From: Antedon mediterranea
Lineage: Eukaryota; Echinodermata; Crinoidea; Comatulida; Antedonidae
DNA length: 64,000 bases
Assembly (NCBI RefSeq): GCF_964355755.1
Contig: NC_092672.1
Location: forward strand, 2,852,001 to 2,916,000
Reading direction: 5' to 3'
The notes beneath the pieces were generated by a model. That model saw nothing but the letters and a program-made list of their open reading frames with translations, was not told the DNA's origin and did not search any database. Both the position numbers and the translations under genes were made by a program. Each line of letters begins with the position of its first letter. Position 1 is the first letter of the stretch. This document shows positions 5,725-62,715 of the stretch, one piece after another.

Positions 5725-5756
5725 GGTTTGTGGTACATCATGTGTTTTTTGAAAAA

Positions 5757-28249: not shown

Positions 28250-31200
28250 TTACAAACAAATCCACCCTCTTTTTATTGGTCTGGGATATTCCTCTGCAAC
28301 CTTTCCAAGGATTTTATCAAACTTATAAAATTTGTCCTTTTTAAAGAAATATGTGTGGTCATTTCGCCAAGTTAGCGCGCCGTTAGTTCCTTTTGGCACC
28401 CCAGGGAACGTGTGTTGAAGTTTGGTACTAGTATGTTTAAAAGTTTTTTGTTGTTCTTCATCAAATATGTACACTTTTTTCTTCTTTATTATGTAGATGT
28501 GGCCGTCTTGTTCGAATGCACTATCTACGTTATCTGGCAATCCAGTTTCGATTATCAGTTTTGGGTAATCTTTGTCCATTTCAAAGTTGCTGTTGAATCT
28601 CCAAAATTGGTTATCTGTTAAACATAAATAATATTTATACATTATAAAAATAAATTATAAATAATAATAAACTATATTTAGTCAATTTGAACATTTGTTT
28701 GTTATCATTAAATCATGTTTTTCCCGCCAGTTTTCTTCTTTCACCTCTCCAGACTAATATGTTAAAGTTACGGATCATCATCTGTTGTTGGCTATCTTTT
28801 TATTAATATTTCGTCGTGAGGTGGTTTTCGATTAATCGTACGATCAAAACGGTAAATATATTGGCACACATGGCGTTTCATATGTATAAACAACGCAAGA
28901 CAATGAACATTTTTTATATATTATTATTATCGCCATGCTCCTCTTTGTATTACGTCATTGTTTATTGTGTTTCGCTACATTAAAATAAAGGGCCCGGTTA
29001 TCCACTCTGATCTAATACATCACTGTGCATTATCCATTTATTTTTTAATTTAAAAAACACATACTGTACCTTTAAAAACGTAAATTTTTTTGGTATTTGA
29101 AGAAAAGACAATGGCATCCATACCAGTCATCTCTTTTGCTTCTTCAACGTCCGGAAAAAGTTCGAAAAGAAGTTTGGGATAGCCTTGCTTGATTCCTGAT
29201 GACACGATTTCCCAGTAGTAGATCCCTGAGAAGAAGTATGTTCTCTCTTGCGGCCCTAAAGGAAAATTAAATAACAACATTAGTTCATTAGTTCATAGTT
29301 CACATACAATTGCTTAAAATTAGTTAAAGTTTAGCAATATACAGAAAAAGAAAAAAGCATTTGAAAAATACAACAGTTACAATATTACTCTGATAACAAT
29401 GAATTAACTTAATTGATTAAAAAGTCTGAATGTGGAACAAAAGAATTAAGGTAATTAATTATTTATGTGTTGGAGAGACACACCTTACCAGTGACAGCGT
29501 TTGTTTAATGCTTATTGTCTTTCCTCGGCCTCGTGTCTTGTTTTTCATATATATATATATATATATATATATTTTTATGTTTTTTTTGTAATTATTATTT
29601 TATGTTTATTGCCGAAATGAATAAAATAAAATAAATAAATAAAATAAAAAAGGAAGCGTTTTGTTCTACACCTCAAGCAGTCCTCAATCGCCTTCCAGAT
29701 CTTAACCATTGATAATTACTATATGGAGTGATTGGGCCTTGTCTTTCATTATGCTACTAACTTTATCATAAACTTTAACTTCAGGGCTGACCAATATTAT
29801 TTGCAATTGTGTTTGGTTCTCACCGCAATAATAGAGTACTAGATGCAACAATAGAAGGGAGTATTTATGTTTCGAATGTCTGTCTATATTTGAATTTCTG
29901 AGTCTATTTAGAAAATAAATTAATCAACTTACCTTGGAGTACTGCATCAAATTTTATTTTGCTTGTATTACATAAATCCAAACGCATTTCGTTCTGTGAA
30001 TTTCCTAGAAATAAATAAACACACGTTATTTTTTTTTTGGTTAACATTTTTTTTTCTGCTTGGATTCGTTGTTATGTGATTGGATGAAAGTTGTTCCGTT
30101 AATTGTCATTATTTAATTTGTGATTAGAATTGCTACTAACCCTAGAAAATTACCAATGATCTCTCATGTCTATACTTTAAAAAACTAATGGTTATATAAA
30201 CGGTTGAAAAACTACTACAGTACTTACTGTATAAGGTTTGAATTGACGTGATGTCATCGGATGGCAGTTCAAAGTTCTTATAATATTTTACTGGCCATGG
30301 TTTCATTATTGATTTGGTTTCATTAGACGTGTGTTCTAGGCCTAGGACATGACCGATCTCGTGAGCTGCAAGAACCATGATGTTGTATTTCGTTCCACTA
30401 GGATCGTGATACTGTTTCGGGCCTAGCCAAGTTTCGGCTTCGTCGAAGTGAACTTGTCCGCGTCTTTCTTCATTTGGAAAGAACGCGTGGGCTAAAACTT
30501 TCCCTATATAAGAAAAAAAATAAATGTTTTCACTTATAAAATTACAAAATAAATAGTTAAATTCAACCAAAAACCCATTGGCTGGCAACCAATTTGACTA
30601 TTTTCTTTCTTTAAATTACAGTTTTTTAGGTAAATACATTTTTCAATCCAATTTTTGGTCAAAGTGGCGAACTATAAAGTGACATTAAAATGGCATATTC
30701 ATCAAAAAGAATTATAATTTCAGGGGACTTCAGGGATACATCCAAAATAACGAAAAAACGAGTATTACATTTAGAACGCAGACAAGATTATTTAGATGAT
30801 ATATTAAGCCAGTTCCAAATGTCTTTCTTTTTGTTTAACCGACTTATTCAAAACAAAACCTTACCTGGTCCATCGAATTCCTTCTGATCTCCGTGGATCT
30901 TGTTTACAAAATCAAATCTAACATCTGAAACAGCGGCATCGTCTACTTGCGTGAATGTCAGTCCACTATTGTCAGACCATAGCTTCACAGCATACTCAAT
31001 ACCATCCTGTATTTCAGATGGTTTTAGATCAGTCGTTCGATTACCAATGTAATATTTCAGATTTCTTTTCTCCCATGCTGATCCTTAAAAAATGACTTAG
31101 AATTAGTTTTTTGTTATCAAGCTCTGTCACAAAAAAAGTGTGATATCCCCAAATATCGTAGTAATATGACATCATCATGTCCATACATTTTTTGTCACAT

Positions 31201-32730
31201 AAAGTTTGATAGTGTAGACAGAGCTTAAAAGCAGATTCACATTTGTTCCGATTATCTTACAAAACGGAACAGATGTGAATGGCGTTTCATACGTATAAAC
31301 AACGCTAGACGATGGTTTGTACAAACATGTAATGTAATAAACACGTTTGTTTAAAACTTTAGTTTAAAAAATAATTAAAAAAAATAACTTGGGGGGAAAA
31401 GTATAACTTCAGTGATGGCCTTTAGACCGCTAATTTCATTATAGGCCTAAACTAAATTCTTGATAATTATTTGATTAATTTTGCATATGCTGCTTTTCAA
31501 TTTAAATTTAAGAAATAAATGTTTTTCTCAATGATATATCGCAAGTTCGTAGGAGAAAAGAAGACACTTCTCTGTCGACAGATGCTTTAGTTTACTTTGG
31601 GGGTAACTCTAAAGCTCTCTCTACATTATCAAACTAGTTTGACATCATGTCCATATATGAGCACATCACGTTTGATAATGTAGACAGAGCTTTAGAATAC
31701 ATAAAGGCTTTTTAAGGCATATTTACCTTGAAAGGCGTTTCGTCTTCTACGTGTTGAATGCGCTTCATTTCCGGATATTTCGTCCGGAATGCCGCATCGT
31801 GGAGCTTGCATCTTAGAAATTGTTGGTTCGTCAAATTTACCAGTCACTTTTAATCCAGCAAATTCTTGAAATTCTCTATAATAAATTGTAAAAAAAAAAA
31901 ATTTTAGCTAACTAAATAATTATATAAAACGTATCTTTCATTCGTAGAGACCTAAGTTTACTAAGTATTTATAATTACAATTATTACTTACTCAATTTTT
32001 AAACTTAATTCAACATCATCATCAATATCGTCTGTCCCTCCACTGTACCAACCAAACTGTTTAAGGTACTCTATATTAGGCTAAAAGAAGAAAGAAGAAA
32101 GCACACGTTTTGTTTTACATATGTGTACTGTATTTAATTATTTTAATTTGTTCTTTCTTTAAACTGAAATACACTTTCAATACAAATGTACTGATTTTAA
32201 AGTGGTTACACAACATATACAAAAAACAAATATTAAAATTTAAAGAAAAACAAATAAAGAAAGTCTGTATTTATTTCTTTTTTTATGTTCCACCAGTCGG
32301 CGTTGCGATTTTTGTCGGGAAAATTTATTGAGAGCTAAAGTATTATACGTATAAAACGCCATATGTGCCAAATTATTTAGCTTTTGCTAATATCAATTCG
32401 AAACACGGTCTGAAACCTAGACTAACATATAAAAACTCATAATTAAATGTTGGTATGTGATAAACAGACCGTAAAATGTTTTTTATAGCATGAAGGATCT
32501 GATACGAACCTGAAGTTCAATTGTTCTTTTAATCGGAATTACGGAACGACATCAGCCTATAATATTATCCAGACTCACTGGAATATTCTGATGATTTGGA
32601 TAATTATCAATAGAAAAGTTTAAACAAATAAAAATGTACTTACATTTTCACCAGTTCCATCGTGTGTTGCTATTGGTAACGCATAACAGCAGTGAAACAT
32701 TAAAAGTATAAACACAAACATTTTTTCCAT
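28250..32730 (-). CDS. Secreted matrix metalloproteinase with hemopexin domain, MMP gene 1
   Basis: Eight coding exons in transcript order: 32730-32644, 32080-31992, 31875-31727, 31083-30865, 30503-30228, 30004-29933, 29255-29070, 28614-28250. Phases are 0, 2, 1, 1, 1, 1, 1, giving 480 residues. Parts in order: signal peptide ([12 protein letters not shown]), propeptide with cysteine switch PRCGIPD (84-90), a furin-type site TRRRR (100-104), catalytic domain with zinc motif [12 protein letters not shown] (229-240) and Met-turn SIMKP, a very short hinge, and a four-blade hemopexin domain bounded by cysteines in LDLC and at RGWICL at the C terminus. It is predicted to be a secreted zinc endopeptidase cleaving extracellular matrix, activated in the secretory pathway by a furin-like protease rather than outside the cell. 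No transmembrane or GPI segment. All catalytic ligands are present. A paralog with the same intron phases lies 6 kb upstream (in transcript direction) on the same strand. Confidence 0.9.
29547..29571. repeat. (AT)n microsatellite in MMP gene 1 intron
   Basis: About 12 AT units between hemopexin-coding exons 6 and 7. Confidence 0.9.
31120..31225. mobile_element. MITE family I copy in MMP gene 1 intron 3
   Basis: Left end shortened to AGCTCTGTCAC; right end GTTTGATAGTGTAGACAGAG intact; core GTAATATGACATCATCATGT. Confidence 0.7.
31613..31691. mobile_element. Short MITE family I copy in MMP gene 1 intron 3
   Basis: 79 bp, with ends AGCTCTCTCTACATTATCAA and TTTGATAATGTAGACAGAGC and most of the core deleted. 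Confidence 0.75.
32343..32425 (-). mobile_element. Diverged copy of the CAGACGGAG/GGCGTTTCAT repeat
   Basis: ACGTATAAAACGCCATATGT then ACGGTCTGAAACCTAGAC; intron 1 of MMP gene 1. Confidence 0.4.
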
Positions 32731-33982
32731 AATAACAATTATTCAAAGACTCTAATTCTAGCAGATGTTTTTTTTTATCAAGTCAGTCAATATCTGAAAC
32801 TATGTATTGAAACTTTTTATTTATAGTCTGCAGCACAGTGTGACAAAATGTACCAGGACTATTCTTGGGAATTACATAAGAGGATTTGATTGGTTAATAT
32901 CTGGCGCGGATTTCCTGTTCCTTGGCAACGGGGCTACTGTACTTGTCCTTTTAGCTGCATCACGACCTTTACGTCGTAACAAAATATTATGAAAACGTTT
33001 ATTTAATATTATATAGATATATTCTATATCATAACTATCATCATTATTATTATCATCGTCCTCGTGGTTGCCATCATCTTTCATAATCATATCGTCATAA
33101 TAATCAGTAATATGGTCACTAATAATTTAAAAATAAAGATTCTTCAACTTCATTGCCAGAAAACAACAAAGAAATTAACAGATATGATAAATTAGAAGGT
33201 TGAAAACACATTTATCTGGTCTAGTTTAACCCTCTTTAAATGAAAAAAATATATAATTGAATACAAACTTATTTTCATTATATCCATTAATCAAGTTAGT
33301 TAAGTTGTATTATAAATAATTCTATAGCTCTCAGATAAATAAAATATATATTGTACAATAATAACATAAACATTCATGCATTGATGTTTTTTTAAACTTA
33401 AAAATAACTGTTTCGAATGCCTTAAGGGTCTAGACGTTCGTTGGTGGAGAGGGACGATTCTTAGAAGTCTTGTTATATAATACGCAGAAACAACCAACAA
33501 CTCAGAAAATAAGACAAATAGAGCATAACGTTTAACCACTGGAAATCTAATTTTAAATAACACTTCCTTTATTTATGAATTAATCTCCGAAAAAGCAGTC
33601 AAAATCTGACCAAAATGACGATTTCAATTAGTTTTATCGTCATCATTGTTGACGTTTTTCTTCGAAAAATTCTCTGACAATTAGCCTAATAACAAACAGT
33701 ACGTACGTGTTTATATGTATATACAAATATTTATTCAGCCATAGTAACAGTAACAAACATTTATTACAAAAATTCCATCTTGTTTATTTTATTTTAGGCC
33801 TAAAACGATTTATAATAATGTTATTATTCATTATTATTTTCCGTTTTTTATGATTTTCTTCCAGGAAGAATAAAGTAACAAGATAAAGGTTGCCAGAATA
33901 CAACTTGTTTCCCATAATCCATCACTCCTATGTACGTTTTCGTAGTTACAGTTCAAATGAGTTCATATACTCTTCTTAAGTA

Positions 33983-34114
33983 AGCTTTGTCTAACAAGTT
34001 TGACAAAAAAAAGTGTCATGTGCTTTAATATGGTAGTGATATGACATCATCATGTCCATATATGGACACATCACATGTTTTCGTCACATAAACTTTGATA
34101 GTGTAGACAGAGTA
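33983..34114. mobile_element. MITE family I copy
   Basis: Ends AGCTTTGTCTAACAAGTTTG and CTTTGATAGTGTAGACAGAG, with core TAATATGGTAGTGATATGAC. Confidence 0.75.
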
Positions 34115-34442
34115 TCACAAGAAAATGGTATTCCGAATGAAGTATAGCTTGTTTCTCCATCACATTTTTAAGTAATTTTTATAAGTTATTAAAGCTCAAA
34201 TGACGTCATAGTCTTTAGCCTAATTGATCAAATCGCGTCGTGGTAAGCACTCCAAACATTTCAATTCTTTGCATTACTATAATATATATAAGATATAGAA
34301 TAAATTTAAGTAGTATAAATACGTTTTTAAAGCATAGGCTACTTTTATTGCATTCAGGATACAGTATATATAAGTGATTTTAACTACTTTATTGAATTGT
34401 CCTGTGTCTATATTTTTACATATATGTATAATATAGTATATA

Positions 34443-34608
34443 TTGTGACTTATATAAATGTTATCCTTTGTTACAATTCTCTTCATCTGATGATGGGCTA
34501 TGCCCGAAACATGTCGTACAAATAAACTTATATTGAGGCCGCTTTAACTTATTTGATCTTGATTCTTTTCTATGTCCTGCCTATGCAACTCTTTGATTTA
34601 TATATAGT
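34443..34608 (+). mobile_element. Dispersed repeat with hammerhead-ribozyme-like core, copy 2
   Basis: Nearly identical to 23707-23870. The core CTGATGA...GGGCTATGCCC-GAAA-CATGTC lies at 34487-34516 with no change in the conserved bases. Confidence 0.5.
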
Positions 34609-35939
34609 ATGTATTTGTATAATGTACCATTGTATGGCAAAACAAAAAGAATAAATGCAGGTGAACCCAGCAAAAATATCTTTTGCATTATACTATTGCC
34701 TCTATTGGATTAACTAAGAATTAAAGCGGAACCCATGACATCCGTTATCATTGCCTAATTGTACACCGACATAAGCCTAATATCCTACTATAAAGTACAA
34801 CTTAGAGTCACGTAGGATACAAATCATGGTTTTTATGTCGGAAGAACCTTGCCAAAATACCAATAACACTTTTCTAAATCCTGTTATAAGAACATTTAAA
34901 TGTAGAAACAGATGAGGAATGTGGATTTTCCTTGCCACAAAACACATGCCGCAAAAACAAATGACGTAATGGTTGTGTACATATTTTCCAAAGATTTTAG
35001 TATAAAATATTAAGGTACATGTGCACTTACTGTAATAATAAAATGAACGCGTCTACTACCACGAGTAGATTTATGTTTTATTTTTATACTCGATAAATAT
35101 TTAAGCAGTTACTTCATATATTAATAACAATTGAACAAACACAAACACAAATTGAGTTTCTTCTTCCTAGAACTTTTTGTGATTGCTTTCTTTGTATCAG
35201 TTTGCTTTGTCATCATCGACGTCTCAAATTAAACCCGCATGTCTACAACAACCATAATAGTGAACTAATAAGTGTAAACACGTGAGTCGTTTCCCTTCAA
35301 CAGGTAAAAGAGAAAACAGTAATTACGATGAACATCAAGGCCTCCTCTGTTTGGTCAAAATGACTCACTAAGATCCGGGGACCCCGTTGAATAATGTTAT
35401 TGTTTATTAGTTGATTTTAGCAAAGGAATGTTTAATAATAATGCGTCATAAACACAACAAGAATGTCATGGTTATAAACTATATTTACAATGAGGTGTAA
35501 AACTATGCACAGTAAAGAAATATGTATTTACTCTGCGTAAACATTGTGGGGATAATACAGTACTGTATCTGTTTTCAAATTAGACGGAGGACCAGGTGCG
35601 TCGCAAGTCCATATTTGAGAAAATTCCATGTACAGGAACATTTTTGAAAAATGGCCAACTTCGATCTTTCCTTTATATATATTGATTACCATGACTCTAT
35701 AAGAGTGGTAAAACAATATAGGCACATTACCAATTTTATTATCGCATTTTAATTTAATTTAAAAGTTTAATTTTTTTTTTTAAATTTCGAAAAATATATT
35801 CTTCTTATTTTCTTGTCTTGTTGGCAATGGCATTATGTGCGTCTGCGCATGCTAATTTATGTTATATATATGTCAAAAAATAAAAAGGTCAACATTTTGC
35901 CAGGGTTTTTGGTCTTTTAAAAACAGGCCTATATATTGA

Positions 35940-38170
35940 GGTAACATGCATTATGTGCGTCTACGCTTGCCAATTTATGAATGGTCAAAATATCAGGTTT
36001 TTAAAAATTAAATTATTATGCGATAATATTGCTGTATATGACCATATATTGCATAATCATCATCTTATAGTGCCATAGAAACCAATTTTGTCACAAAATA
36101 AAAGGTACGAAATAATATTGCCATTTAAAAAAAATCCCTGTACTATACTGCCCGTCATGAAAGAACGACTCAACTGCATAAAGCAAAGTTTTGAGATAAT
36201 CAACAAAACGTGTTCTTGTTTTAGCTCTTCACGTGTGTAGATAATATTATTTTGATTAGCATAATAAACATGCGCAGAGGCGAATAATGGGTTCTGCGCA
36301 TGTCAATTTTGCTATAGTAACCAGTTTTATCGAAAAATAAAAAGGTCGAAAATTTGCCATTTTTTGAAAAATGGCCGATTTTCGACGCTTTTATTTTTTG
36401 ACATAAATGGTTACTATTGCATAATAAACATGCACAAAGTCGAATAATGGGTTCTGCGCATGTCAATTGTGCTATCATCCATAACCATATTTGACATAAA
36501 TGGTTACTATTGCATAATAAACATGCGCAGAGACGAATAATGGGTTCTGCGCATATCAATTGTGCTATAGTAACCAGTTTTGATATAAATGGTTACTATT
36601 GCATAATAAACATGTGCAGAGACGAATAATGGGTTCTGCGCATGTCAATTGTGCTATAGTAACCAGTTTTATCGAAAAATAAAAAGGTTGAAAATTTGCC
36701 ATTTTTTGAAAAATCCCTGTACTATAGTACATGGAAATTTTCGAAAAATGGCCGATTTTCGACCCTTTTATTTTTTGACATAAATGGTTACTATTGCATA
36801 ATAAACATGCGCAGAGTGGACTAATGCGTTCTGCGCATATTAATTGTGCTATAGTAACCAGTTTTATCGAAAAATAAAAAGGTCGAAAATTTGCCATTTT
36901 TTGAAAAATCCCTGTACAATAGTACAGGGAAATTTTCGAAAAATGGTCGATTTTCGATCCTTTTATTTTTTGAAATAAATGGTTACTATTGCATAATAAA
37001 CATGCGCAGAGACGAATAATGGGTTCTGCGCATGTCAATTGTGCTATAGTAACCAGTTTTGACATAAATGGTTACTATTGCATAATAAACATGCGCAGAG
37101 ACGAATAATGGGTTCTGCACATGTCAATTGTGCTATAGTAACCAGTTTTATCGAAAAATAAAAAGGTCAAAAATTTGCCATTTTTTGAAAAATCCCTGTA
37201 CAATAGTACAGGGAAATTTTTGAAAAATGGTCGATTTTCGACCCTTTTATTTTTTGAAATAAATGGTTACTATTGCATAATAAACATGCGCAGAGTCGAA
37301 TAATGGGTTCTGGGCATGTCAGTTGTGCTATCATAACCATTTTTGAAAAAATCCCTGTACTATAGTGCAGGGAAATTTTCGATTTTCGACCCTTTTATTT
37401 TTTGACGTAAATAGTTACTATTGCATAATAAAGATGCGCAGAGTCGAATAATGGGTTCTGCGCATGTCATTTGTGCTATAGTAACCATTTATGTCAAATA
37501 TGGTTTTCGAAAAAAAACTTGAATGGGTTTCCTATGACATAATAGGTGTTAATATGTCAATTGAGTGATTCTGTCATGGCATTTGTAGTAGAGGTGTATC
37601 ATTCCCTAAATAGCCCCAAAAGCTAAACAAAGTGATTTTTTAAAAATGTGTCAGTTGAGTCGTTCTTTCAGACAGAGCAGTATTACTGCTTTTACTTTTT
37701 TTTAATACCTTATTCATTTGTTTTATTATTGATTGAAAGAAAGAAAATAAATGTTTACGTTGAATTGAATTGAATTGAGTATAGTACAGATATTTTTATC
37801 AAAAAATGGTTAAAATATCAATTTTTTTTTAATTCAATTATTATGCGATAATATTGCTATATATTAGCATATATTGCGTTATCATCTTATATTGCCATAG
37901 AAACCAGTTTTGTTAAAAAATAAAAGGTTCGAAATTTGGACATTAAAAAAAAAATCCCGTACTATAGTACAGGGGTTTTTCGAAATTGGCCAACATATAA
38001 AGTTTTTTTAAATTCAATTATTATGCGATAATATTGCTATATATATGATCATATATTGCGTTATCATCATCTTATAGTGCCATAAAAACCAGTTATGTCA
38101 AAAAATTAAATGTTTGAAATTTGAACATTTAAAAAAAATCCCTGTACTATACTTTGTCTAAAAATTGCCA
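35940..38170. repeat. Cluster of nested inverted repeats, unit about 240-290 bp
   Basis: Units repeat in tandem with variation. Each combines AAATGGTTACTATTGCATAA, ACATGCGCAGAG, TTCTGCGCATGTCAATTGTG, CTATAGTAACCAGTTTT and, in longer units, the palindrome CCCTGTACTATAGTACAGGG (copies near 36714, 36905, 37192, 37354 and 37967). GGTTACTAT/ATAGTAACC and ATGCGCAGA/TCTGCGCAT pair to give a hairpin of about 90 nt per unit. The flanks (to about 35.9 and 38.1 kb) carry a second, related unit with GCGATAATATTGCTATATAT. Open frames on the minus strand here (36221-37065) repeat with the DNA and are not genes. Confidence 0.75.
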
Positions 38171-38773
38171 AAATATCGACATTAAAACAACAGGCCTATA
38201 CATTATATTGAAGAAGAATTTTACGGAAAACGGTCAATTTTCGAATATCGAAAAAAAAAATTCCGAAACATTTTTTCGTCACATCGATCAAACGGTAAAC
38301 ACGTCAGTCATATACATAATGGTTTTGAAAATGAAAGCTTGGCATAATGTGACAATAACTAAATATTTACATTTCGATTTAATTATAAAAACAAGCTACT
38401 TACTGGTATAAAATTGGTTCAATTTTAATTCTAACGTGTGTGTGAGCATTTTGAATTAGTATTTTCACTGGTAGACGTATATTCTCTATAGTCTCTGCCT
38501 CATTGGATTGTATAGTACGTTCATTTTCTATTATTTACATCGTTCATAAATTAAAGTGAAAAAGGTCGTTTTATTTTTCTAGCTACGGATTATATGGTTA
38601 GAACATTACGACAAAGAGAAGAGTGACTATTTCGTTCACTATAGAAACATCATTTCAAACAAATATTATTTTAAAAAACATTTCCCAGGAATGTTAGATT
38701 TAATTTATATATGTTTAGTATTAAATTAATATAAATTAAGTGTGGGATAACGTCAAGTAACGACCACGTGTGT

Positions 38774-45102
<6,329 letters not shown>

Positions 45103-47659: not shown

Positions 47660-48573
47660 TCAAGAGTAACACGCAACGGTTCTTGTAATGGTTCTTCGAA
47701 AACCCTCTCGAAACGCTTTCAACATAAAATTATAAATAATGGGATTTATTGACAAACTTAAAATGCTTGTAACTTCTGCAAATGTTCTAAATATATTCAT
47801 AGGGTAATTTGTAGGTTTATACCCAACGTGAATCGCCATATATAACAACATTGGCGACCAGCATACGAAAAAGCCAATCACCACTGTCATCGTAGTCTTT
47901 ATAGTTTTACGCAGCGACGTTCTCGCTCTCCACTTGGCATATTTTCATCTTTAACTTTTTCCGAAATAGAAAATATTTTTCTGTAAATCACTGCAATAGT
48001 ACAAAATGTCAATACGATACCGCAAATTCTCATTACTTCGTAAACACGGTACGCTGAATAGCTGTATGTTTGACAAACGCTTGGATGGCTGCAATCCTGA
48101 TCTTCCTCCAGGCCACCGAATAGGAGCACGAGACCCCAAATCACTCCGATTGTCCACGAAAAAATACCTACATAAACCGCGTAAATAAGACGCGCATGCT
48201 TTTTGTATTTATACGGATATGAAATGGCAAAAAATCTATCAAGTGTGATAAAAAATAGATGCCATACTGAAACTGGACAGCAGATATACAATGGGATGTA
48301 CCAGATATCTCCCTTTAAAGCAGTGTCGCTAAAACTTGTTCTGGAATATATATTAACGTATACAGCCAGCGGTACACCAATAATCGATGATAAAAAGTCC
48401 GAACACGTCAGGCTCGCGAGAAGTATTAAAATGACTAATAAGTTACCAAAAGCTCCAACAAATGCGAATAAAGATGTTAGTCCACAACAATTGAATAACA
48501 TATAGTAATAAAAACTGTCCGATTCAATTTCTTTCGTGCGTTTTTCCTCCATTATCCTTTCAAAATAAAACAT
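47660..48573 (-). pseudogene. Rhodopsin-like GPCR, decayed (loop deletion plus frameshift)
   Basis: The N-terminal part (48573-47899) encodes transmembrane helices 1-5, with LDRFFAISYP (DRF in place of DRY) after helix 3. The rest (to 47660) encodes helices 6-7 with FFVCWSP and NPIIYNFMLKAF, in a different frame. Frame 1 ends at TAA 47899-47901; the second frame is open from just after a TGA near 47944, reading KYAKWRARTSLRKTIKTTMT, so a single shift within about 20 bases separates them. In addition the region after GNLLVILI runs straight into LLASLTCSDFL. The usual distance from the helix 1 Asn to the helix 2 Asp is about 32 residues and is only 15 here, so intracellular loop 1 (about 17 residues) is gone. 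No intron fits either break. A sequencing error could explain the frameshift but hardly the in-frame deletion. Ligand class unknown. Confidence 0.75.
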
Positions 48574-49390
48574 GACAAAATTAGGAACCGAAATGTATTG
48601 ATTTCAGAAGCAATATAGGTCTACTATAAAATATAACTTCGTGGTTACATTAATCAACAACAATTGTTTTGTAACAGGGGTTTCTACTTATTATAAGCTA
48701 TGTTTCAGAGATTCCCCTTTTCCATTCTTTTGTTTTGTAATAACTAATATGATTATGTGTGTATCATTTTGTGAATGGAAATAAAGAAAGAAAGAATAAA
48801 CTCTCACGAAAGTGTAAAACTATGACCGAGAGACAAATCAAGTATGAAAAGACTAAATCACCTAACTGATATCTGATTTGATATTTTTAAGCCTATGCAC
48901 TGCAATAATAATAATCTCCTAAAGTCGATGCGCAAGTAATACAATATAAAACGTCTACCAATGACAGAATAAAAGTGATGAAACCAATGTATGACAAAAA
49001 AATGTCTTTTTTATATTTTCAATAATCAATTTCTCATTATATTACTCGATATTACAGTTAAAACTTGCCTAGCAGAAACAAATCAAAAAAAAAAAAATAG
49101 AAAAAGAATTACTGTACTTCAAAAACGTTTGACGTTCCAACTTGCCTTAAATTATGTTAAATTGGCCCTCAGAGACTTTCTTTACAGCAGCACTCCTGTA
49201 CATAAATAATAATATAACTTATCGACAGTACATGTTTACACTTGATGCCGTTACCATCCAATTGCTGGACTTAAGAACATCTGAGGAGCACAGTGTATCT
49301 ATGACAGCGCATCGATCAGTGACTAAAGGCAATCCTATTGGTACCAACCAATCAGATTATGTTACAGGATAACAATTTCCAATATTTTGT
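48574..49390. other. Intergenic, no feature seen
   Basis: AT-rich DNA upstream of the receptor pseudogene; short open frames only, none with a family signature. Confidence 0.4.
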
Positions 49391-51567: not shown

Positions 51568-52463
51568 TTTTATTTCATTATTTTTAAATTAATTTAATAA
51601 CTTTATACGTATTTATTTTTTCATAATTTTCTATTTACAAGTAATTTATAAAGGCAATCTCGTCACAAGATTCACATCTTTTTGGGATCTGCCTTGGTCC
51701 ATTTTCTTCTTTATCTCTTGCCATTGTTGTTTTTTGTTACTTTTTGTCTTTTGGACGTTAATAAATGTTCTTTGAATTGAATTGAAAATAATTAAATTAT
51801 TTGGAATTATCTAGCATCCATTGTTAATCGTCGACAAAAGCAGGCACAGTGAATACTGTAAACATGACAAAGGTTGATCGTCGCAAATCGAAAGCTAGTA
51901 ATATAATACGATGTCAACTCTTCCCATTGGCTATATCTTTTTGTATACGATTCTCTAGATGTACAATCACCGCGGTCTTGTAGGTATAATTGACTAAACG
52001 TCAACGTTCAAGATGACCTGACATTTAATATCGAATTCTCATTCCAAAATATATCACTAAATAAACATTAATATCATATATTGCTACTCTTGAGTGTTGC
52101 GACTTGTAAGCCAGGTTTAGTTATGTTTTTGACACCACCAATAAGGAACGACATTATCATGCTTTACGCGAACACAAGAAGACTGCTTGGCTCACGTATC
52201 AATTATACACAATTTAACCGCCGATTATTTTATAATATATAATTTTCTATAAACGTTTGGACAGTGGCGTAACGCAGAGGCCCCTGGATTAGGAACCATA
52301 AGGAGTCCTCCAACGCTAGATGTTTTTAGCCTTTTTCGACATATTTTAATGCCTGTTTTTTCCTCTGGGCACACTCATAAGCCCCTGGGTTTAGCCAGTG
52401 AGCGTTCATAGACGTTACACACACACTGCGTTTGGACGAAGCTGCGGTGTAACCCTCTCTACA
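51568..52463. other. Region between receptor fragment and receptor gene
   Basis: No exon seen. If the receptor is single-exon, its promoter lies here. A frame in continuity with the receptor opens at 52398 and would add 22 residues. Confidence 0.35.
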
Positions 52464-53369
52464 ATGTCTACTACGTCCACTACAGTTTTCGATTCTTCAA
52501 ATTCTACGACTAAACCGCCCGTCGAACACGTTTGGTACAGTACCTGCGGAGACTATATACATCTGTATATCCTGACAATAGGTTATGCTATTTGTTCGAT
52601 AATAAACTTATTATTTTTGCTAACAATCGCGAGATCTTCACAGCTTCATACAAAAACAAACGTATTCGTATCAAGCTCAACTATTTCCCGAATTATTTGC
52701 TCAGTTATGGGCTGGATGTACATAGGACTGTTTTTATCAAGCGCAATACTATTTGATTTTCAGATTGTTGTTTTATGGGAAAATATGGTGACTATAGAAA
52801 TAGTTCATATTATAACAATTGCGTTAGACAGATACCTAGCGGTGTTTAAGCCCGTGTTGTATATTAGAATCAACCCAATTCACTATAGACGCATTTGCTA
52901 TGCACTGTGGCTTGGAATGGCGGCAAACATGTTGTTGGGAATATATTACGAAGAAACTGGACTCGTTACAATGTGCTCCTTGGGTTTAATTACTATAATA
53001 CCGTCTAGTATTATATATGGTCTCGTCTACAAAACGTTGATCAAAAAAGAAAAACTGTGTACGGAACAAAGTAGGAAGACACGACTTATAAAATCACGCA
53101 AAGTTTCACTGACATTATGTCTGGCTGTTACGACAAACATGTGTTTCCTTTTTCCGTATGTCGTTTATATCATCGTTGCCGCCGTTATATCTTCATCGCT
53201 CGATTATAAAGATCATTATTCGATTATATATATGTGTTACACGGATTGGTTTTTAATTATGTATTTGGTATGCACGCCTATTGTATTTTGGATACGTTTA
53301 CCGGTATACCGCAACTGTACAAAAAACGTATTACGTTGTAGACAACGAAGTTTAACGGTTAACCCTTAA
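52464..53369 (+). CDS. Seven-transmembrane receptor, class A-like, single exon
   Basis: About 301 residues from the Met at 52464. An upstream in-frame ATG at 52398 would give 323. I prefer 52464 because the duplicated fragment at 51.46 kb aligns only from a few bases before that ATG, and the added residues are not signal-like. The N terminus is Ser/Thr-rich with NST glycosylation sites. Seven hydrophobic segments follow. Helix 3 ends in ALDRYLAVFKP, the class A DRY box. Other landmarks are weak: helix 1 has SIINLLFLL where Gly-Asn is usual, helix 6 has FLFPY rather than CWxP, and helix 7 ends CTPIVFW rather than NPxxY. This resembles the fast-evolving, intronless receptor families expanded in echinoderms. 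Ligand unknown. The cytoplasmic tail is short (about 20 residues) and the stop codon directly abuts a MITE. Confidence 0.8.
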   Translation: MSTTSTTVFDSSNSTTKPPVEHVWYSTCGDYIHLYILTIGYAICSIINLLFLLTIARSSQLHTKTNVFVSSSTISRIICSVMGWMYIGLFLSSAILFDFQIVVLWENMVTIEIVHIITIALDRYLAVFKPVLYIRINPIHYRRICYALWLGMAANMLLGIYYEETGLVTMCSLGLITIIPSSIIYGLVYKTLIKKEKLCTEQSRKTRLIKSRKVSLTLCLAVTTNMCFLFPYVVYIIVAAVISSSLDYKDHYSIIYMCYTDWFLIMYLVCTPIVFWIRLPVYRNCTKNVLRCRQRSLTVNP

Positions 53370-54456: not shown

Positions 54457-54583
54457 AGCTCTGTCTTCACTATCAAACTTTGTGACAAAAAAATGCGATG
54501 TGCCCATATATGGACATGATGATGTCATATCGTTACCATATTTGGGCACATCACACTTTTTTTGTTTGATAGCGCAGAGAGCT
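54457..54583. mobile_element. MITE family I copy with TTA target duplication
   Basis: AGCTCTGTCTTCACTATCAA to GATAGCGCAGAGAGCT, flanked by TTA at 54454-54456 and 54584-54586. Core CATGATGATGTCATATCG. Confidence 0.85.
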
Positions 54584-55031
54584 TTAGATTTTGTTACTAC
54601 AATTTAGAAACATAGAAATTGCACACGTAATAGTGATAAATAAAGCCCATGATTGGGTCATCATAATATATACAGGACACACACACACACAGTCAGCCAG
54701 GCTGGACACCTTATGAGCCGGCACCCGGTTAGCTTCAAACTCAACAAGACCTCTGCAGAGACTGATATTTATAGGTCACAAAGTGTGATTTGAGGCCTAG
54801 AAAAATTGTCTACATAAATCCTACTTTTAAGCTAATATTTAGAAAAAAGATATTAGAAACCGTAATATTATATTGAATCTTACTGAAATTTATCCCTAAT
54901 TATTAATAAAAATGTTATCACACTACTTAACAAATACTGTGTATTATCAAGCTAACCAGGTGCCACCCATAACTACAAATATATTTTCAATTTAGCATTA
55001 CAAATTTAATAAATAAATCGACAGCCTGTTG

Positions 55032-55191
55032 TCAATGCCGATGCGTGCTATCCCTACTCCAGCTGCGACTGTATCGTGTGAGTGAGGGCGTCCTGCTGCT
55101 ACGTGAGCGACTGGTATATGAATAGTAAGAACTGTCAGATCCTGAGGGGCTTGTGACTGGTCTCGAGTATGGTATTGGACGTTTTCTGGCA
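55032..55191 (-). CDS. eMIC-completing terminal exon (isoform 1)
   Basis: Acceptor TTGTTCGCAG ends at 55192. The exon supplies ARKRPIPYSRP, the second half of the eMIC signature, followed by about 40 Ser/Arg/Tyr-rich residues and TGA at 55032-55034. It completes codon AG|T (Ser), giving RRITS-ARKRPIPY. It is reached only by skipping the nearer terminal exon across a 5.3-kb intron. Confidence 0.75.
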
Positions 55192-58100
55192 CTGCGAACA
55201 AAAATGATAAATTAGGTGTTAGAACATACAGATTGTGAACTTTATACAAAATCACATATGCCTACTGTAATTTCTGGAAATACTTTTACTTTTTATCATA
55301 TTCTCTTTTAAATAATGTACAAGTAATATGATTTGGCCTTTATTTGTTGTTGCTGTTGCTACTAGATTTTATGGTACTAATCTCACTGCAATACTGTATA
55401 CATTAATAACTAATACATATGCTACTTTAGCGGTTAAAGCCTGTTTTCCTGTCGACGTTATTCGACGCTATCGTCGTTGATAGTTAACAGTTCAACGACG
55501 ATCGTTTGAAAACGATCAAGTTGAAATGATAACGATAGCGAGTACCTTTTCCTGTAAATCGTTACCATTTCAATGTTTACGTAGAAGATCGCCGATTATT
55601 GTTAACGATAGCGTTGAATAACGTCGACAGGAAAACAGGCTTAATGAATCAATTTTACCTAAAAAATTCCCTATATTCAACTAAACATGCTCTATGTTAG
55701 TTAATTCTATACTTTATATTAGTAGTGTGTAAATAGAGAGATAGCTGAATTATTGATTGTGAAATTTAAAAAAAATTAGTTTATCTATATATTTCTGAAT
55801 AATAGACAGGCATTCAGTATTATTCAACCAATAATTTATAAAATATTAAAAAAATTAACATTGTTAATAGTAAATTATAAATGTGTTATTCAGATTGTTA
55901 GCAAAATAATACACCAGTAAAATTAGTATTAAAAGCATGATTTTAAACTGATTGTAGTAGCATTGACAACAAAACAATAAGTAAAGTTATTAGTATGATA
56001 ATTGTTAGTTATTAAACATGATAATCTGTAAAAACAGTGAAATGCGTTATTTGATTAAATACATAAAAAAAAAGAACTCGGAAACGCTGAAATGATGATT
56101 AAATGTTAATAGATAATACTCTAAAAAAACAATATGTGATGAGATCAGTCTTTTACATAAGTAGCAGAATAAGAATGATCAGATTGTTTTCAACAAATTG
56201 GAATTGAAAATGTAATACATTAACATTTAGTAAGTGAAGCATAGGAATTGATTAAAGGTACAGGGCGACAGGTACAGGGCGACAGAACAAGCGGATAGAA
56301 GGGCGTCCGTCATGAATTTAACACAATAGACTGATTTGATATTTTATTGAAACATTAGTAAAGCTCTATCAACACTACACTAGTTTTAAGTGTGATATGG
56401 CCGAATATGGTAGTGATATTCCTAAATATGGTAGTGATATTCCTAAATATGGTAGTGATATTCCTAAATATAGTAGTGATGTGACACAGGTCACAACACA
56501 TTATTTTGTCACATAAAGTTTGATAGTGTAGACAGAGCCTTAGCTTCTAGATTGTATATAATTGGGAGTATTTAACTTGGGATGACATATGACCTCAACT
56601 CAAACACACAATAAATTAATGTGATGTCACAGGTCGTAGGTCATCCCAAATCACTAAAATCCTTAATAAAACAAACACTTCAAATATTCTGTCTAAAGTT
56701 ATTAATAAACAAAGCAGAAGATTCAAACAAAACATCACAAATACAAACTCTACAAGCTCAAACATAACATCTCTTAAGCTCTGTCTACACTATCAACTAG
56801 TTTGACAAAAAAGTGTGATGTGCTCAAATAGGGTAATGATATGCCCAAATATGGTAATGATATGACATAATCATATCCATATATGGGCAAATCACATAAA
56901 GTTTGATAGTGTAGACAAAGCTTTAGTTAAAGATTGTTATACATAATGAACACATTTCATTGCATACAATATGAAAACAGACAGTACACTATATTACAGT
57001 AAAATAAAACAAATAATCACAATACAGTATAATACCAACAGAGAAACAACACAGTATATCAATAGCGTTGTACAATACCACCATGATCACAAATACTACA
57101 TTTTAAAGTAAAATGAAAACGTTCATGTAAAGAATGGAAGACATTAGCAAGATAGATAGATGTAAACCATTGATCGCAAACTTTACAGATCAATTAAATA
57201 GCAATCAATTTTTCTCTCAATCTATCAATCAATCATCAACCAATCAAGGATCTAATTACACCACACAAAAATTAACGAGGATCGCTAACACTTACTGCGC
57301 AATCAGTGTTCTAATTAGCCACATGGCCATGTGGCTGCTTGATTAATGAAGCTATTATTATGACTGGTGAGCATGTACAGATGTTATGCTCTCCTTCTTT
57401 GTAGTATGTTTTGCATATTGAAAGTTCCACGACAACATAAAAAATGAGTAATGCAATTTGTTTGAAATAAAAAAAGCCAATATAAACAAAGCAATATATA
57501 GAGATATGAAACGGACTAAATAAAATGATTGATGCAACATGGAAAACACCAAAAAATGTGGAAGAGAGAGCAACGTTAACAACACCCAAAAGTATGTTTA
57601 AAAAGCTACAAAAAAGCAAGATGCAATAACAAATACAAAGAAGCCACAGATCCCATGCAAAAAAACAAAATTATATTCCATTCTAATGCAATTCAAAGTC
57701 TATTCCATGGCATGCATGTAATAGTACAGCAACTATTTAGTTATAGGGACAATGTCAAAATTGTTCTACTTCACTTACTACTGTACATTTTACTCTTTAA
57801 GGCCAGTTTACACAGACGAGCGGTAACGGTAAGAAAAAAAAAAGAATCTATTCCTAATGACTATTTATACACAACGCGAAGCAGATATGCGGTATCTGCT
57901 CAGGATACAGATTCTACGTGGGACAAGCTACTCGGTTTTCCGCTTACTATTACTGCGTATCTGTGTAAACTGGTCATTCAATTATTAAGGCAGCTTTTCT
58001 TGGTAAACATACACACTGTATATGCAGTTCTGCAAAAACTAAAATCATGTTTTTCTAGTTGAAATAATATAGAATAATTTTGACATGATCACTAATAATT

Positions 58101-61100
58101 TAATATGAAAACTCATTCTACACGGCAACGTCATCTAGCAATGTTTTAACGACGTGTGATAATCTGTGCCATTCCATACTGGCACCCTGTGTAATGTATT
58201 AACATGGGTTTGCTGTTGTGAAACCATATCATATTGTCATGCTCAGCTGATGTTCACATGAGATGTTTTTTTATGAATCAAAATTACGTCAAGAACACAC
58301 AATGTATTGTGCTATCATAATAGGTATGGAATGTGAACTGAAGGTAATTGCACCAATTTTAGTGTACCTACAGTAATACCAATTGTCGTAATAATTAAAC
58401 GATAAGGGTTTAATAACACAAGACAAAGATAATGGCTGTATTAAGGAAAATTATCACTTTTATATGTTGTTATTCGAAAATGTTTTCTCAATGGAGAGAA
58501 CTTCTCTTAGATTAATTGTTTGCTATTAATTTGTTTAATTTTGCTGTTTAAATTTGTTTATGAAAATCAAATTCCTTTTAATTCTGAAACAATATCAATC
58601 AATCAATCAATCAGACTTATATAGCGCCGGTATCCATAAAGGTGCTAAACAAAGTTAAACAGGAAATTAGATATGAATTGAATTTGAATTAGATTTGGTT
58701 AATGTGTTGACCTATAGGAACAATAAGCTTATAGGGTTCTAGATCCAAGGAGATGGGTCATATATATTACTGAGTACAATATTTGCAAGTTTAATATTCA
58801 TTTAAGAAAACCAAGAAAACGATAAAATTAATAAGAAATAAATTGTCAGGACTACTGCAGCGTATGTTATATTTCTAAAAGCGGGTAGTGAAATGCATTG
58901 TTGGTAATCTAGTGTCCGACTTAGACCTTAGTGAATAAATTAGAATATGTGTTAGTAAACAACAATATCAAGCTATGACAAATAGTAAATTTCACAGATA
59001 ACAATATTATTAATGTAAATGTTGTATCTAAAATCAATATTTCAGATGCAAAGTCAACCTTTGATTTGGAATATTTGCAGATTATATATATATTACTTTT
59101 CTTTCTTGTTATACTATTTTTTTGGAAATTAAAATGGTTTATTAAAAAAAGTAAAAAAAAAATATAGTTTCTCATATGGATAGCTGACAGATAGATAGCT
59201 ACAGTTGTAGGTACCAACATTAGGTGCCACAGTCCTTTATACAAGCATAGGAAAATAAATGTTGATTGAATATAAAACAAAGCATTGTCACTGGGATGTT
59301 TTAGAATTGTGTCTATTGCTTATCATCATCTAATTATTAATCTTTGCTCATTCAATTTCTTATTAATGATTGACAGATGACAATACAAGATGATGGCAAA
59401 GAAGACGATAGTTCATTAAACATTGACTGCACAATTTATTGATTGTTATTATTATCTGTGTTTAACAATTTGTTTCACTATAGCTTGAAATTGTTATATA
59501 TGTTATATATATATATTTATATATCTTCTACATTAGTGGAACAAAGAGAAAGGGTTTTGAGGGACAATATGCAAATTGATGTTAGAGAGAAATATGGTGA
59601 CATTAGCGAGAAATTTGATGACATTAGGGAGAAATTTGATTACATTAGAGAGAAATTTGATGACAGCGAGAAATGTACAAAGGAACTTCTCAGTAAATAA
59701 TCAATGTAGAGATATATACATATATATTTTAAAACATAGCCTTATATGTAGCTGAATGTGAGATTGCATTTAGATGCTTAAAACAAGCTGTCATACACAC
59801 TGATGCGATGGCTCAACGTCTGTAGTAGTCCCGGTTCTCTTCACGGTGATCCCTGCGATCGGGAGAATGATGGCGATCTCGATGATCACGAGATGAGTAA
59901 TCTCGTGAGGAGTGCACATGGCTACGGTGCTCACGACCCCTATATCTGTCAGGTGATCTTGAAAAAATGGTTTGCAAAAATACATTTATATGCATATATA
60001 TTATTCACAATTGTTTACCAAACATTGATAAAATAAAAGTATATCTACCATCGAATTAATCTTTTCATTCACCAATTCCCAATATTTTGGGGTTGATAGA
60101 ATTAAAAGATTATCACCATGACTACTAAATGATAATTACATGATAAAAATATTAAAAATCATAAATTTATTGCAACATTAAAACTTAAAAAGCCATTATA
60201 AAATTTCCACCATGACAAAATGATTTCCCAAAAAATATAATTCAACATATCATGCTTAAAAATGGCGGACTCATGCATTCGATAATGAATAAAAACACGA
60301 ACAAAAATTTGCTTATATTTAAATTTAACTATCAACATTTAAAGAAGACTGCCTTACAACACAAACATTGAACAAGTTTAAGTTGTGCTTTCATCTTTAT
60401 ACACTGCAAGTATACGTTACCATATATTGCCTTCATCCTTATTTTTCTGAAAGCAGATACTTGGGAAAAATCAATTTGTTTATATATTTATCAACATCTT
60501 TTCAGATGTGATCTGTACCTTGTTATTCTACGGGCATCTAAAAAGCTGGGCGAGTCCCGTCGTTTGCGGATTGGAGACCACTGCTTGCCGTTTTCTTTGC
60601 TGTTACTACGTGAATGCCTTCGTTTTTCCTTGTCTTGTGAGTATGATCTTGAACGACGATAAGTTGGGCTGAAGAAGAAAACAAACTTTAATTAAATATA
60701 ACAAGATAAGTAGTAAGCGCAATAATTTTTATATATTTCAGGTGATGATATTTTTTTGGGATAGAGTTACTTGTGGTAAACTGCATTCACAGTTGAATAC
60801 AGTTATTAATGGTTAACATAAAAATCACTGAACAAAAACTTTTTGAACTCTTCAATTCCAGAAATTTAAAGACTGTATTATTTCGTTATTTCATAATAGA
60901 ATGATACACATACCTATTGCTTCTAGAACGAGAGAAGCTTCTGGACTTTGAACGTCTACTGGGGCTATCAGAATGTCCGCGAGACCTGTAAATAATAATT
61001 AAACACAGGTAAAAAAGATTTAATTCAAATACAGAACAAAATAAATCAAAGCATTTTATTACCATAGAAACTACTGACCTATGCTTCTTGCGAGGTGTAT

Positions 61101-62715
61101 GACTACGACTATGTGATCGGCTTGACTCGGACGAGTAATCGGACACGGGTGAACGGGATTTGTGCTTTCTTCTCCTCTCATCAGATTTGTTGTAATCATG
61201 ATGCTCCTTTCTGCGGGATCTTTTGGATGACTGCGATTTTTGATGATCGGAAGTGTGGTCTACCTCGTGGGCAGAATCAGCGGCAGATTCAGACTCGTCA
61301 TCGTTTCTATGATGTTTTCTAAAGATACAATAAACAACAACAAATTATACATTTGATTGATTGTATCTGAATATAATATATTAAACACCTCAGATAAATA
61401 TATAGCAGTAAGTGTCTATGTTGAATACAGCAAGTGTCGAAGTTGAATATAGTAAGTGTCTAAGTTGAATATAGTAAGTGTCTAAGTTGAATATAGTAAG
61501 TGTCTAAGTTGAATACATGTGTCTAAGTTGAATACAGTAAGTGTCTAAGTTGAATACAGTAAGTGTCTAAGTTGAATTCAGTAAGTGTCTAAGTTGAATA
61601 CAGTAAGTGTCTAAGTTGAATACAGTAAGTGTCTAAGTTGAATACAGTAAGTGTCTAAGTTGGATACAGTAAGTGTCTAAGTTGGATACAGTAAGTGTCT
61701 AAGTTGAATACAGTAAGTGTCTAAGTTGAATACAGTAAGTGTCTAAGTTGAATACAGTAAGTGTCTAAGTTGAATACAGTAAGTGTCTAAGTTGAATACA
61801 GTAAGTGTCTAAGTTGAATACAGTAAGTGTCTAAGTTGAATACAGTAAGTGTCTAAGTTGAATACAGTAAGTGTCTAAGTTGAATACAGTAAGTGTCTAA
61901 GTTGAATACAGTAAGTGTCTAAGTTGGATACAGTAAGTGTCTAAGTTGAATACAGTAAGTGTCTAAGTTGAATACAGTAAGTGTCTAAGTTGAATACAGT
62001 AAGTGTCTAAGTTGAATACAGTAAGTGTCTAAGTTGAATACAGTAAGTGTCTAAGTTGAATACAGTAAGTGTCTAAGTTGAATACAGTAAGTATCTAAGT
62101 TGAATACAGTAAGTGTCTAAGTTGAATACAGAAAGTGTCTAAGTTGAATACAGTAAGTTGGTAAGTTGAATACAGTAAGTGTCTAAGTTGAATACAGTAA
62201 GTGTCTAAGTTGAATACAGTAAGTGTCTAAGTTGATTACAGAAAGTGTCTAAGTTACTCATGTTATTTAAATTATTTATATATTCATCGAGCAGATACTA
62301 GTATTTGATTGAATGCTCACATGTAAACAATACATTTAAATATTCTCTTTGAAACAATTATTTCCATTTTGCCATAACAATTTTATATCTTAATTCACTG
62401 ATTTTTACACAAACTGATCACATGAAATAAAAAAAAATACTAGTGCTTGAATTTTAAAGTAAAAATATATCCATCCATCATTTTAAAAGTATAAATAATC
62501 ATTTTTGTAAAAGTAAATGTTTTCCACTGACGCCAAAGAAATGTGATGCTTGTAGGCGACTGTTTTGGAAATTGCTTGAAGGAATTTACATAATGACGTG
62601 CAAGTTTATTAGGAATTTGAGAATTCATTTAATCAGCATTCATTAAATTATGAAATGTCAAGTGTATTAATGTTCTTACCTTCTATGGCTTCTATGCTTT
62701 TTACTTCTATGTGAT
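55032..62715 (-). CDS. srrm234-like: SRRM2/3/4-like SR splicing regulator with eMIC domain, 3' exons
   Basis: Exons in transcript order: 62715-62680 (36 nt), 61318-61079, 60985-60914, 60668-60519, then terminal exon 55191-55032 ending in TGA. All internal junctions are phase 2 and GT-AG. The exons encode an Arg/Ser-rich region (SHRSKKHRSHRR, KSRSPVSDYSSESSRSHSRS, RSKSRSFSRSRSNR), then RRDSPSFLDARRITS joined to ARKRPIPYSRP, then a Ser/Tyr/Arg tail ending RDSTHRH. The RDSP-LEARRITSARKRPIPY-RP signature is, to my recollection, the eMIC (enhancer of microexons) domain at the C terminus of vertebrate SRRM3/SRRM4 and of the single invertebrate SRRM2/3/4 gene. This domain is sufficient to drive neural microexon inclusion. 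The N-terminal cwf21-type region must lie right of the window. An alternative terminal exon lies between the two eMIC halves (listed separately). Nuclear, spliceosome-associated by inference. Confidence 0.75.
55435..55644. mobile_element. PIF/Harbinger-type MITE with TAA target duplication
   Basis: Termini AGCCTGTTTTCCTGTCGACG and CGTCGACAGGAAAACAGGCT are perfect complements, flanked by TAA at 55435-55437 and 55642-55644. The interior arms (ATAACGATAGCG, CGATCGTTTGAAAACGATC) also fold back. Only copy of this family in the window, and well preserved. It lies in the last intron of the SRRM-like gene. Confidence 0.85.
56362..56540. mobile_element. MITE family I copy with triplicated core
   Basis: Ends AGCTCTATCAACACTACAC and GTTTGATAGTGTAGACAGAG. 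The core AATATGGTAGTGATATTCCT is present about three times in tandem. Confidence 0.75.
56777..56922. mobile_element. MITE family I copy with TTA target duplication
   Basis: AGCTCTGTCTACACTATCAA to TTGATAGTGTAGACAAAGCT, flanked by TTA at 56774-56776 and 56923-56925. Confidence 0.85.
57803..57977. mobile_element. MITE family III copy
   Basis: GGCCAGTTTACACAGACGAG to TCTGTGTAAACTGGTCATT, matching the outer ends of the element at 46442-46985. Open reading frame across it is accidental. Confidence 0.65.
59560..59690 (+). repeat. 21-bp repeat with heptad coding potential
   Basis: About four units of GAGAAATTTGATGACATTAG(A/G). One frame reads EKFDDIR repeats, i.e. a 7-residue period typical of coiled coils, within an open frame 59443-59700 that begins in AT microsatellite. 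Opposite to the SRRM-like gene, in its last intron. No splice or homology support for a gene. Confidence 0.5.
59813..59957 (-). CDS. Alternative terminal exon of the SRRM-like gene (eMIC-less isoform 2)
   Basis: Acceptor ATTTTTTCAAG ends at 59958. It continues the phase 2 codon as AG|A (Arg), giving ARRIT-RSPDRYRGREHR, then about 30 Arg/His/Asp-rich residues (DHRDRHHSPDRRDHREENRD) and TGA at 59813-59815. Splicing exon 60668-60519 to this exon removes ARKRPIPY and truncates eMIC. Composition is SR-like, so it is a plausible coding exon rather than noise. A minus-strand AATAAA around 59436 could serve as its polyadenylation signal. Use of the exon is inferred, not shown. Confidence 0.6.
61400..62257. 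repeat. 22-bp minisatellite (TAAGTGTCTAAGTTGAATACAG), about 38 copies
   Basis: Highly uniform array between SRRM-like exons 62715-62680 and 61318-61079, ending about 80 bases upstream of the acceptor of the latter. The gene-sense strand reads CTTAGACACTTACTGTATTC in every unit. Confidence 0.95.

Follow-up and report, generated by a model that had tools for sequence, protein, structure and literature searches.

Two candidate 3' endings share one splice donor inside the eMIC domain of the single detected Srrm234 gene of the crinoid Antedon mediterranea

The sequence analysed here is a 64,000-nt stretch of the Antedon mediterranea genome (contig C3, NC_092672.1, positions 2852001-2916000; referred to below as the window). 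Its reverse strand carries the 3' part of a gene of the SRRM2/3/4 type, here named Srrm234, in which the coding sequence of the eMIC domain is interrupted by a splice donor facing two candidate terminal exons. For gene building, the next 28.5 kb were added (92.5 kb in total), coordinates above 64000 continuing the window numbering, and genome-wide searches covered the 354-Mb genome in 18 contigs. The resulting model comprises nine common exons followed by either a proximal or a distal ending (Table 1); its introns are all GT-AG, the frame is open from the MYNGIGL start to the stop, and the predicted products have 428 amino acids (aa) with the proximal and 433 aa with the distal ending. The 5' exons were located by short sequence patterns typical of SRRM2. 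Limited enumeration yielded 96 frame-consistent exon chains; one was picked by eye among those listed, for undamaged conserved regions and plausible-looking splice sites, after which its open frame was confirmed. From exon 2 to exon 9 every exon length is a multiple of three and every intron is in phase 2, so that any one of these exons could be skipped without a frameshift.

The gene had been assigned to the SRRM2/3/4 type in an earlier description made from the letters alone (the sequence-only reading), and profile and chain comparisons bore this out. Specifically, the predicted protein contains a cwf21 domain (54.4 bits, Pfam cut-off 23.2), and its residues 1-357, including the region THQLAE...YVDGSSFDP, match the SRRM2 chain of PDB 5mqf (chain S, presumably human) with E=1.8e-52, the later part of this match being RS-rich and of low information. 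Six sequences were matched in total, with CWC21 (E=2.3e-6) and cwf21 (E=4.4e-8) among the other chains. Across the 354 Mb, cwf21 was found at a single place at E <= 0.001, and the peptides of exon 9 and of the proximal exon each at a single place. The distal exon peptide gave one strong place, its sole other match at E <= 10 having E=1.34 and 35% identity. On the strength of these searches A. mediterranea is taken as an animal with a single detected Srrm234 (ancestral SRRM2/3/4) gene, the non-vertebrate condition, with the proviso that further copies may be hidden where sequence is masked or missing.

Exon 9 ends in ...RRDSPSFLDARRIT-AG followed by gtacag, the AG forming the first two bases of a split codon that can be completed in two ways. 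The proximal exon, 561 nt from exon 9, is preceded by ...ccattttttcaag and together with the split codon reads RSPDRYRGREHRSHVHSSRDYSSRDHRDRHHSPDRRDHREENRDYYRR and then a stop; the split codon becomes AGA (R) and is followed by SPDRYRGREHRSHVHSSRDYSSRDHRDRHHSPDRRDHREENRDYYRR and the stop. The distal exon, 5.3 kb from exon 9, is preceded by ...tttttgttcgcag and reads SARKRPIPYSRP...DSTHRH up to its stop; here the split codon becomes AGT (S) and is followed by ARKRPIPYSRPVTSPSGSDSSYYSYTSRSRSSRTPSLTRYSRSWSRDSTHRH and the stop. Both joins are in phase 2 and both are open, in agreement with the earlier coordinates of all three exons and the earlier reading of two candidate terminal exons on one donor. 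The two tails differ in composition, with 8 RD/DR steps in the proximal tail versus 1 in the distal tail.

The two joins also differ in their match to the Pfam profile SRRM_C (PF15230; 67 columns, cut-off 27 bits), whose region we take to be the eMIC of the literature. Exon 9 alone scored 33.6 bits over columns 13-55. With the start of the distal exon added, the score rose to 59.0 bits over columns 13-67, whereas addition of the proximal exon start gave 27.6 bits over columns 11-56. A scrambled distal start used as a control gave 33.7 bits and retention of the intron 32.5 bits, while the distal exon by itself gave 14.3 bits over columns 56-67. No SRRM_C match was obtained with the reversed join or with the RS-rich body of the protein. 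In C-terminal pieces, the 126-aa distal form reached 53 bits over columns 1-67 and the 121-aa proximal form 24.2 bits over columns 5-56. In the piece formed by exons 8 and 9 the match begins at residue 19. The eMIC profile is split between columns 55 and 56, its last 12 columns coming from the distal exon and the proximal exon giving no replacement. The sequence-only reading had held that only the distal join restores the eMIC signature, and in this the profile scores agree with it. On the evidence of sequence, phase and the Pfam controls, two predicted terminal exons would compete for one donor, and the eMIC is completed by the distal one only.

The composition of the proximal exon was analysed by counting R/S/H/D/E/Y/K/P as SR-type residues and ranking AG sites by length multiplied by the excess of such residues. 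Among 239 AG sites between 60518 and 54900 whose frame, read in the phase set by exon 9, is closed, the site at 59957 ranked first (48 aa, 94% SR-type), followed by nested sites of the same frame and then by the distal exon. Elsewhere in the 92.5 kb, only 1/8326 AG sites taken as background gave at least 40 aa with at least 70% SR-type residues, and this one reads through exon 4 of Srrm234 itself. In first-order Markov shuffles of the region, a frame of at least 40 aa was obtained in 0/500 at 85% SR-type residues or more and in 5/500 at 60% or more. The GC content is 52% in each of the proximal and distal coding exons versus 26-30% in the adjoining introns and trailers, all six Arg codons are used in the proximal tail, and a tandem repeat scan reported no repeat over the proximal exon. 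Taken together, these features set the proximal exon beyond chance and make it very probably coding.

Scored with a generic matrix, the shared donor of exon 9 was the lowest of the nine donors of the gene (1.12, the best being 6.41), and the proximal acceptor scored -2.15, the second lowest of the ten scored, versus 6.18 for the distal acceptor. Ending in AAG, the proximal acceptor stands at the 73rd percentile of all AG sites on the same strand between 54500 and 92000; the acceptor of exon 2 (85067), which lies inside the conserved cwf21 region, scored lower still. A weak shared donor with a proximal acceptor weaker than the distal one would fit a regulated choice. Between 59950 and 58900 no donor as strong as the weakest donor of the gene was found with the same matrix, the sole donor scoring at least 0.5 being at 59935 (0.81), ahead of the proximal stop, so that the proximal exon looks terminal-only and its use as an internal poison exon is unsupported. 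A candidate polyadenylation (poly(A)) hexamer follows each stop (Table 1). The proximal one lies in an AT-rich intron where hexamers are frequent, and with such a base composition a hexamer by itself says little. The first description of the locus included neither the AATAAA past the proximal stop nor the weakness of the shared donor, and it did not extend to the gene's 5' half, which lies outside the window.

Table 1. Features of the Srrm234 model in A. mediterranea (window numbering; coordinates above 64000 lie in the added 28.5 kb)
Feature	Coordinates	Strand	Remarks
Exon 1	85707-85469	-	frame-consistent model; MYNGIGL start
Exon 2	85067-84966	-	102 nt; frame-consistent model; acceptor inside conserved cwf21 region
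Exon 3	72769-72611	-	159 nt; frame-consistent model
Exon 4	71944-71864	-	81 nt; frame-consistent model
Exon 5	69128-69066	-	63 nt; frame-consistent model
Exon 6	62715-62680	-	36 nt; in-frame, RS/KH-rich; ttatttcag before ATC, gtaagaac after AAG
Exon 7	61318-61079	-	240 nt; RS-rich; frame-consistent model
Exon 8	60985-60914	-	72 nt; RS-rich; last few residues under first SRRM_C columns
Exon 9	60668-60519	-	150 nt; first main eMIC-encoding exon; shared donor, gtacag after AAG; reaches SRRM_C column 55 of 67
Proximal terminal exon	59957-59813	-	48-residue RD/RS/H-rich tail (split Arg codon counted) and stop; incomplete eMIC
AATAAA, candidate poly(A) signal of proximal exon	59435-59440	-	first AATAAA past proximal stop; starts 373 nt after stop
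Distal terminal exon	55191-55032	-	SARKRPIPYSRP completes eMIC, then S/R-rich tail and stop
ATTAAA, candidate poly(A) signal of distal exon	55005-55010	-	starts 22 nt after stop

It is very likely, in our judgement, that the locus represents the 3' end of a single Srrm234 gene with two alternative endings, of which the distal one completes the eMIC and between which a neuronal choice would be expected. Exon 9 and the end of exon 8 supply the first 55 of the 67 eMIC columns, and the weak donor of exon 9 could be paired either with the close, weak acceptor or with the distant, strong one. Splicing to the proximal exon with cleavage after it would give the 428-aa SRRM2-like protein with its RD/RS-rich tail and incomplete eMIC, and skipping of the proximal exon with splicing to the distal exon would give the 433-aa protein with a complete eMIC. 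Both mRNAs are predicted from these joins to be produced. By analogy with Drosophila, selection of the distal ending is expected to be neuronal and governed by an ELAV/Hu-type factor, with the product of that ending then activating neuronal microexons. The sequence-only reading had likewise put forward a one-step switch between a generic SR protein and a microexon activator.

Several observations weigh against this reading or reduce its support. The splice-site scoring matrices were generic ones. A six-frame scan of the genome with PF15230 returned no match, as expected for a domain split between exons. In scans of the whole protein, SRRM_C stayed under its cut-off in both forms, the distal form scoring 18.4 bits and so lower than the proximal form at 23.6 bits; these sub-threshold scores are tentatively attributed to the composition correction of HMMER over a long RS-rich protein, since shorter stretches of the distal form reach 53-59 bits. 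In short pieces the proximal join gives 24.2 and 27.6 bits, values close to the cut-off of 27, so that the profile by itself does not call the proximal form eMIC-less. With regard to ELAV control, UUUNUUU, given as a putative Elav motif in PMC8797185, was counted 7 times in a stretch of 883 nt around the proximal 3' end, compared with a mean of 1.44 (sd 1.44) in shuffles. Five of the seven sit in two T runs, and the density of 7.9/kb compares with 6.4/kb in the rest of the intron and 4.8/kb in the upstream introns. The motif also exceeds shuffles in these other regions (24 vs 10.8 in the rest of the intron and 109 vs 47 in the upstream introns). In view of the T runs and of the similar excess in other introns, UUUNUUU enrichment was dropped as support for ELAV control. 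The genome does contain an ELAV/Hu-type gene, at C6:3847130-3860719, with five exon matches (best 140.4 bits), all below the 279.1 bits required of a whole protein, a shortfall to be expected when a protein is matched exon by exon.

It is unlikely, though conceivable, that both endings are made and that the choice between them is set by proximal poly(A) cleavage or by transcription rate, as a general rather than a neural decision. The AATAAA past the proximal stop favours such a choice, as do the missing donor between 59950 and 58900, which makes for a simple either/or terminal exon, and the UUUNUUU density, which is no clear outlier among the introns. The presence of an ELAV/Hu-type gene in this genome argues against it, as does the Drosophila gene, where the same choice is neuron-biased and driven by Elav/Fne and where ectopic eMIC is harmful, according to PMC8797185.

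Use of the distal ending as the constitutive one, with 59957-59813 a relic or a never-spliced RS-like stretch, is also decidedly unlikely. The low score and AAG end of the proximal acceptor are what an unused exon would lead one to expect, but the exon 2 acceptor, in a conserved region, scores even lower. A relic should have gained stops or frameshifts, whereas the stretch keeps an open frame of 48 aa in the exact phase, with its high SR-type and GC content and an AATAAA downstream, and according to PMC8797185 the fly gene carries a proximal terminal exon at the same point. Retention of the intron that follows exon 9, as a third ending, is very improbable: its short open read-through (RYRSHLKRC, then a stop) is accompanied by an AATAAA at 60171, but it adds nine residues only and leaves SRRM_C incomplete.

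Under the favoured two-ending model, the proximal tail could in addition be a second, distinct effector with partners of its own, in line with the remark in the sequence-only reading that the eMIC-less tail may have its own role. The switch would then exchange two different C-terminal activities, and not simply turn the eMIC on or off as the four-residue ending of the fly does; from the composition of the tail this seems possible rather than likely. RS-rich tails of this kind are expected to be disordered.

The introns around the terminal exons contain repeats. A 206-bp element at window positions 55437-55642, which lies some 245 nt before the acceptor of the distal eMIC exon, has 38-nt terminal inverted repeats (97%). 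Near-full-length copies with 94-100% identity were present at 40/40 scored places, itself included, out of 393 candidates, and on this identity the element appears to belong to a young family resembling miniature inverted-repeat transposable elements. Other short inverted repeats whose ends resemble these (TTGATAGTGTAGACAGAGC-type) lie in and after the distal intron, at 56773-56926, 56520-56543 and 54461-54581, and the intron ahead of exon 7 holds about 39 copies of a 22-bp tandem repeat (61406-62255). Elsewhere in the window, a 42-bp tandem array at 5755-7120 (32.5 copies, 98% match) can be read on either strand as a long open frame (393 and 379 aa) and is probably satellite-like rather than a gene. 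Matrix metalloproteinase-like exons occupy 28250-42122 on the reverse strand (Peptidase_M10, two matches of 118 and 90 bits; Hemopexin, one match of 96 bits), and two genes resembling rhodopsin-family G protein-coupled receptors are located at 47899-48603 (-) and 52395-53369 (+), with 7tm_1 scores of 71 and 41 bits, respectively. On another contig, C9:6113010-6115877 encodes three guanidino kinase domains in one uninterrupted open frame of 1124 residues with no intron between the domains, resembling a three-domain flagellar creatine kinase. Marker searches of the genome gave no COX1, no GH6 tunicate marker, no annelid linker and no mollusc haemocyanin domain; the last three were blank in all 14 control genomes as well and so exclude nothing.

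The arrangement most resembles that of Drosophila Srrm234 (CG7971), whose 3' end distinguishes isoforms A/G from C/F. In PMC8797185, a proximal non-eMIC exon able to be terminal is followed by a distal eMIC-encoding terminal exon, and the presence of the eMIC in Drosophila Srrm2/3/4 is likewise recorded in PMC8553928. Both the cut inside the eMIC and the switch itself are already published for the fly in PMC8797185, so the novelty implied by the sequence-only reading for a cut inside the domain does not stand. According to the review PMC10551640, the arrangement with alternative endings is inferred for the bilaterian ancestor. By the same account in PMC8797185, the fly differs from the crinoid in three respects. 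Its proximal exon encodes only the last four residues of isoforms A/G, compared with a 48-residue RD/RS tail here. That exon can also serve as an internal poison exon (isoform G), whereas no donor was seen after the proximal exon here. In the fly a minigene of about 1.2 kb accommodates the last three exons with their two introns, compared with 5.6 kb with transposon-like insertions here. The predicted proximal tail is the feature that departs most from the fly arrangement; it suggests that proximal endings are not necessarily poison exons and may encode a sizeable RD/RS tail.

With vertebrate SRRM3 and SRRM4 the predicted distal form shares a complete SRRM_C (eMIC) near the C terminus. In vertebrates, as described in PMC8797185, expression of the eMIC is controlled through transcription of Srrm3 and Srrm4, whereas here one gene would make both forms. 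With SRRM2, CWC21 and cwf21 proteins it shares the N-terminal region MYNGIGL...cwf21...YVDGSSFDP; SRRM2 is without an eMIC according to PMC10551640, whereas the distal form here completes one. From genomic sequence alone, the crinoid gene gives a clean example, modelled in full, of the predicted eMIC switch of Srrm234, in which a domain cut by a shared donor is easily overlooked, the genome scan with the eMIC profile being blank and the spliced join scoring 59 bits. Compared with the four-residue proximal ending of the fly, its long proximal tail bears on the role that the ancestral non-eMIC form may have had.

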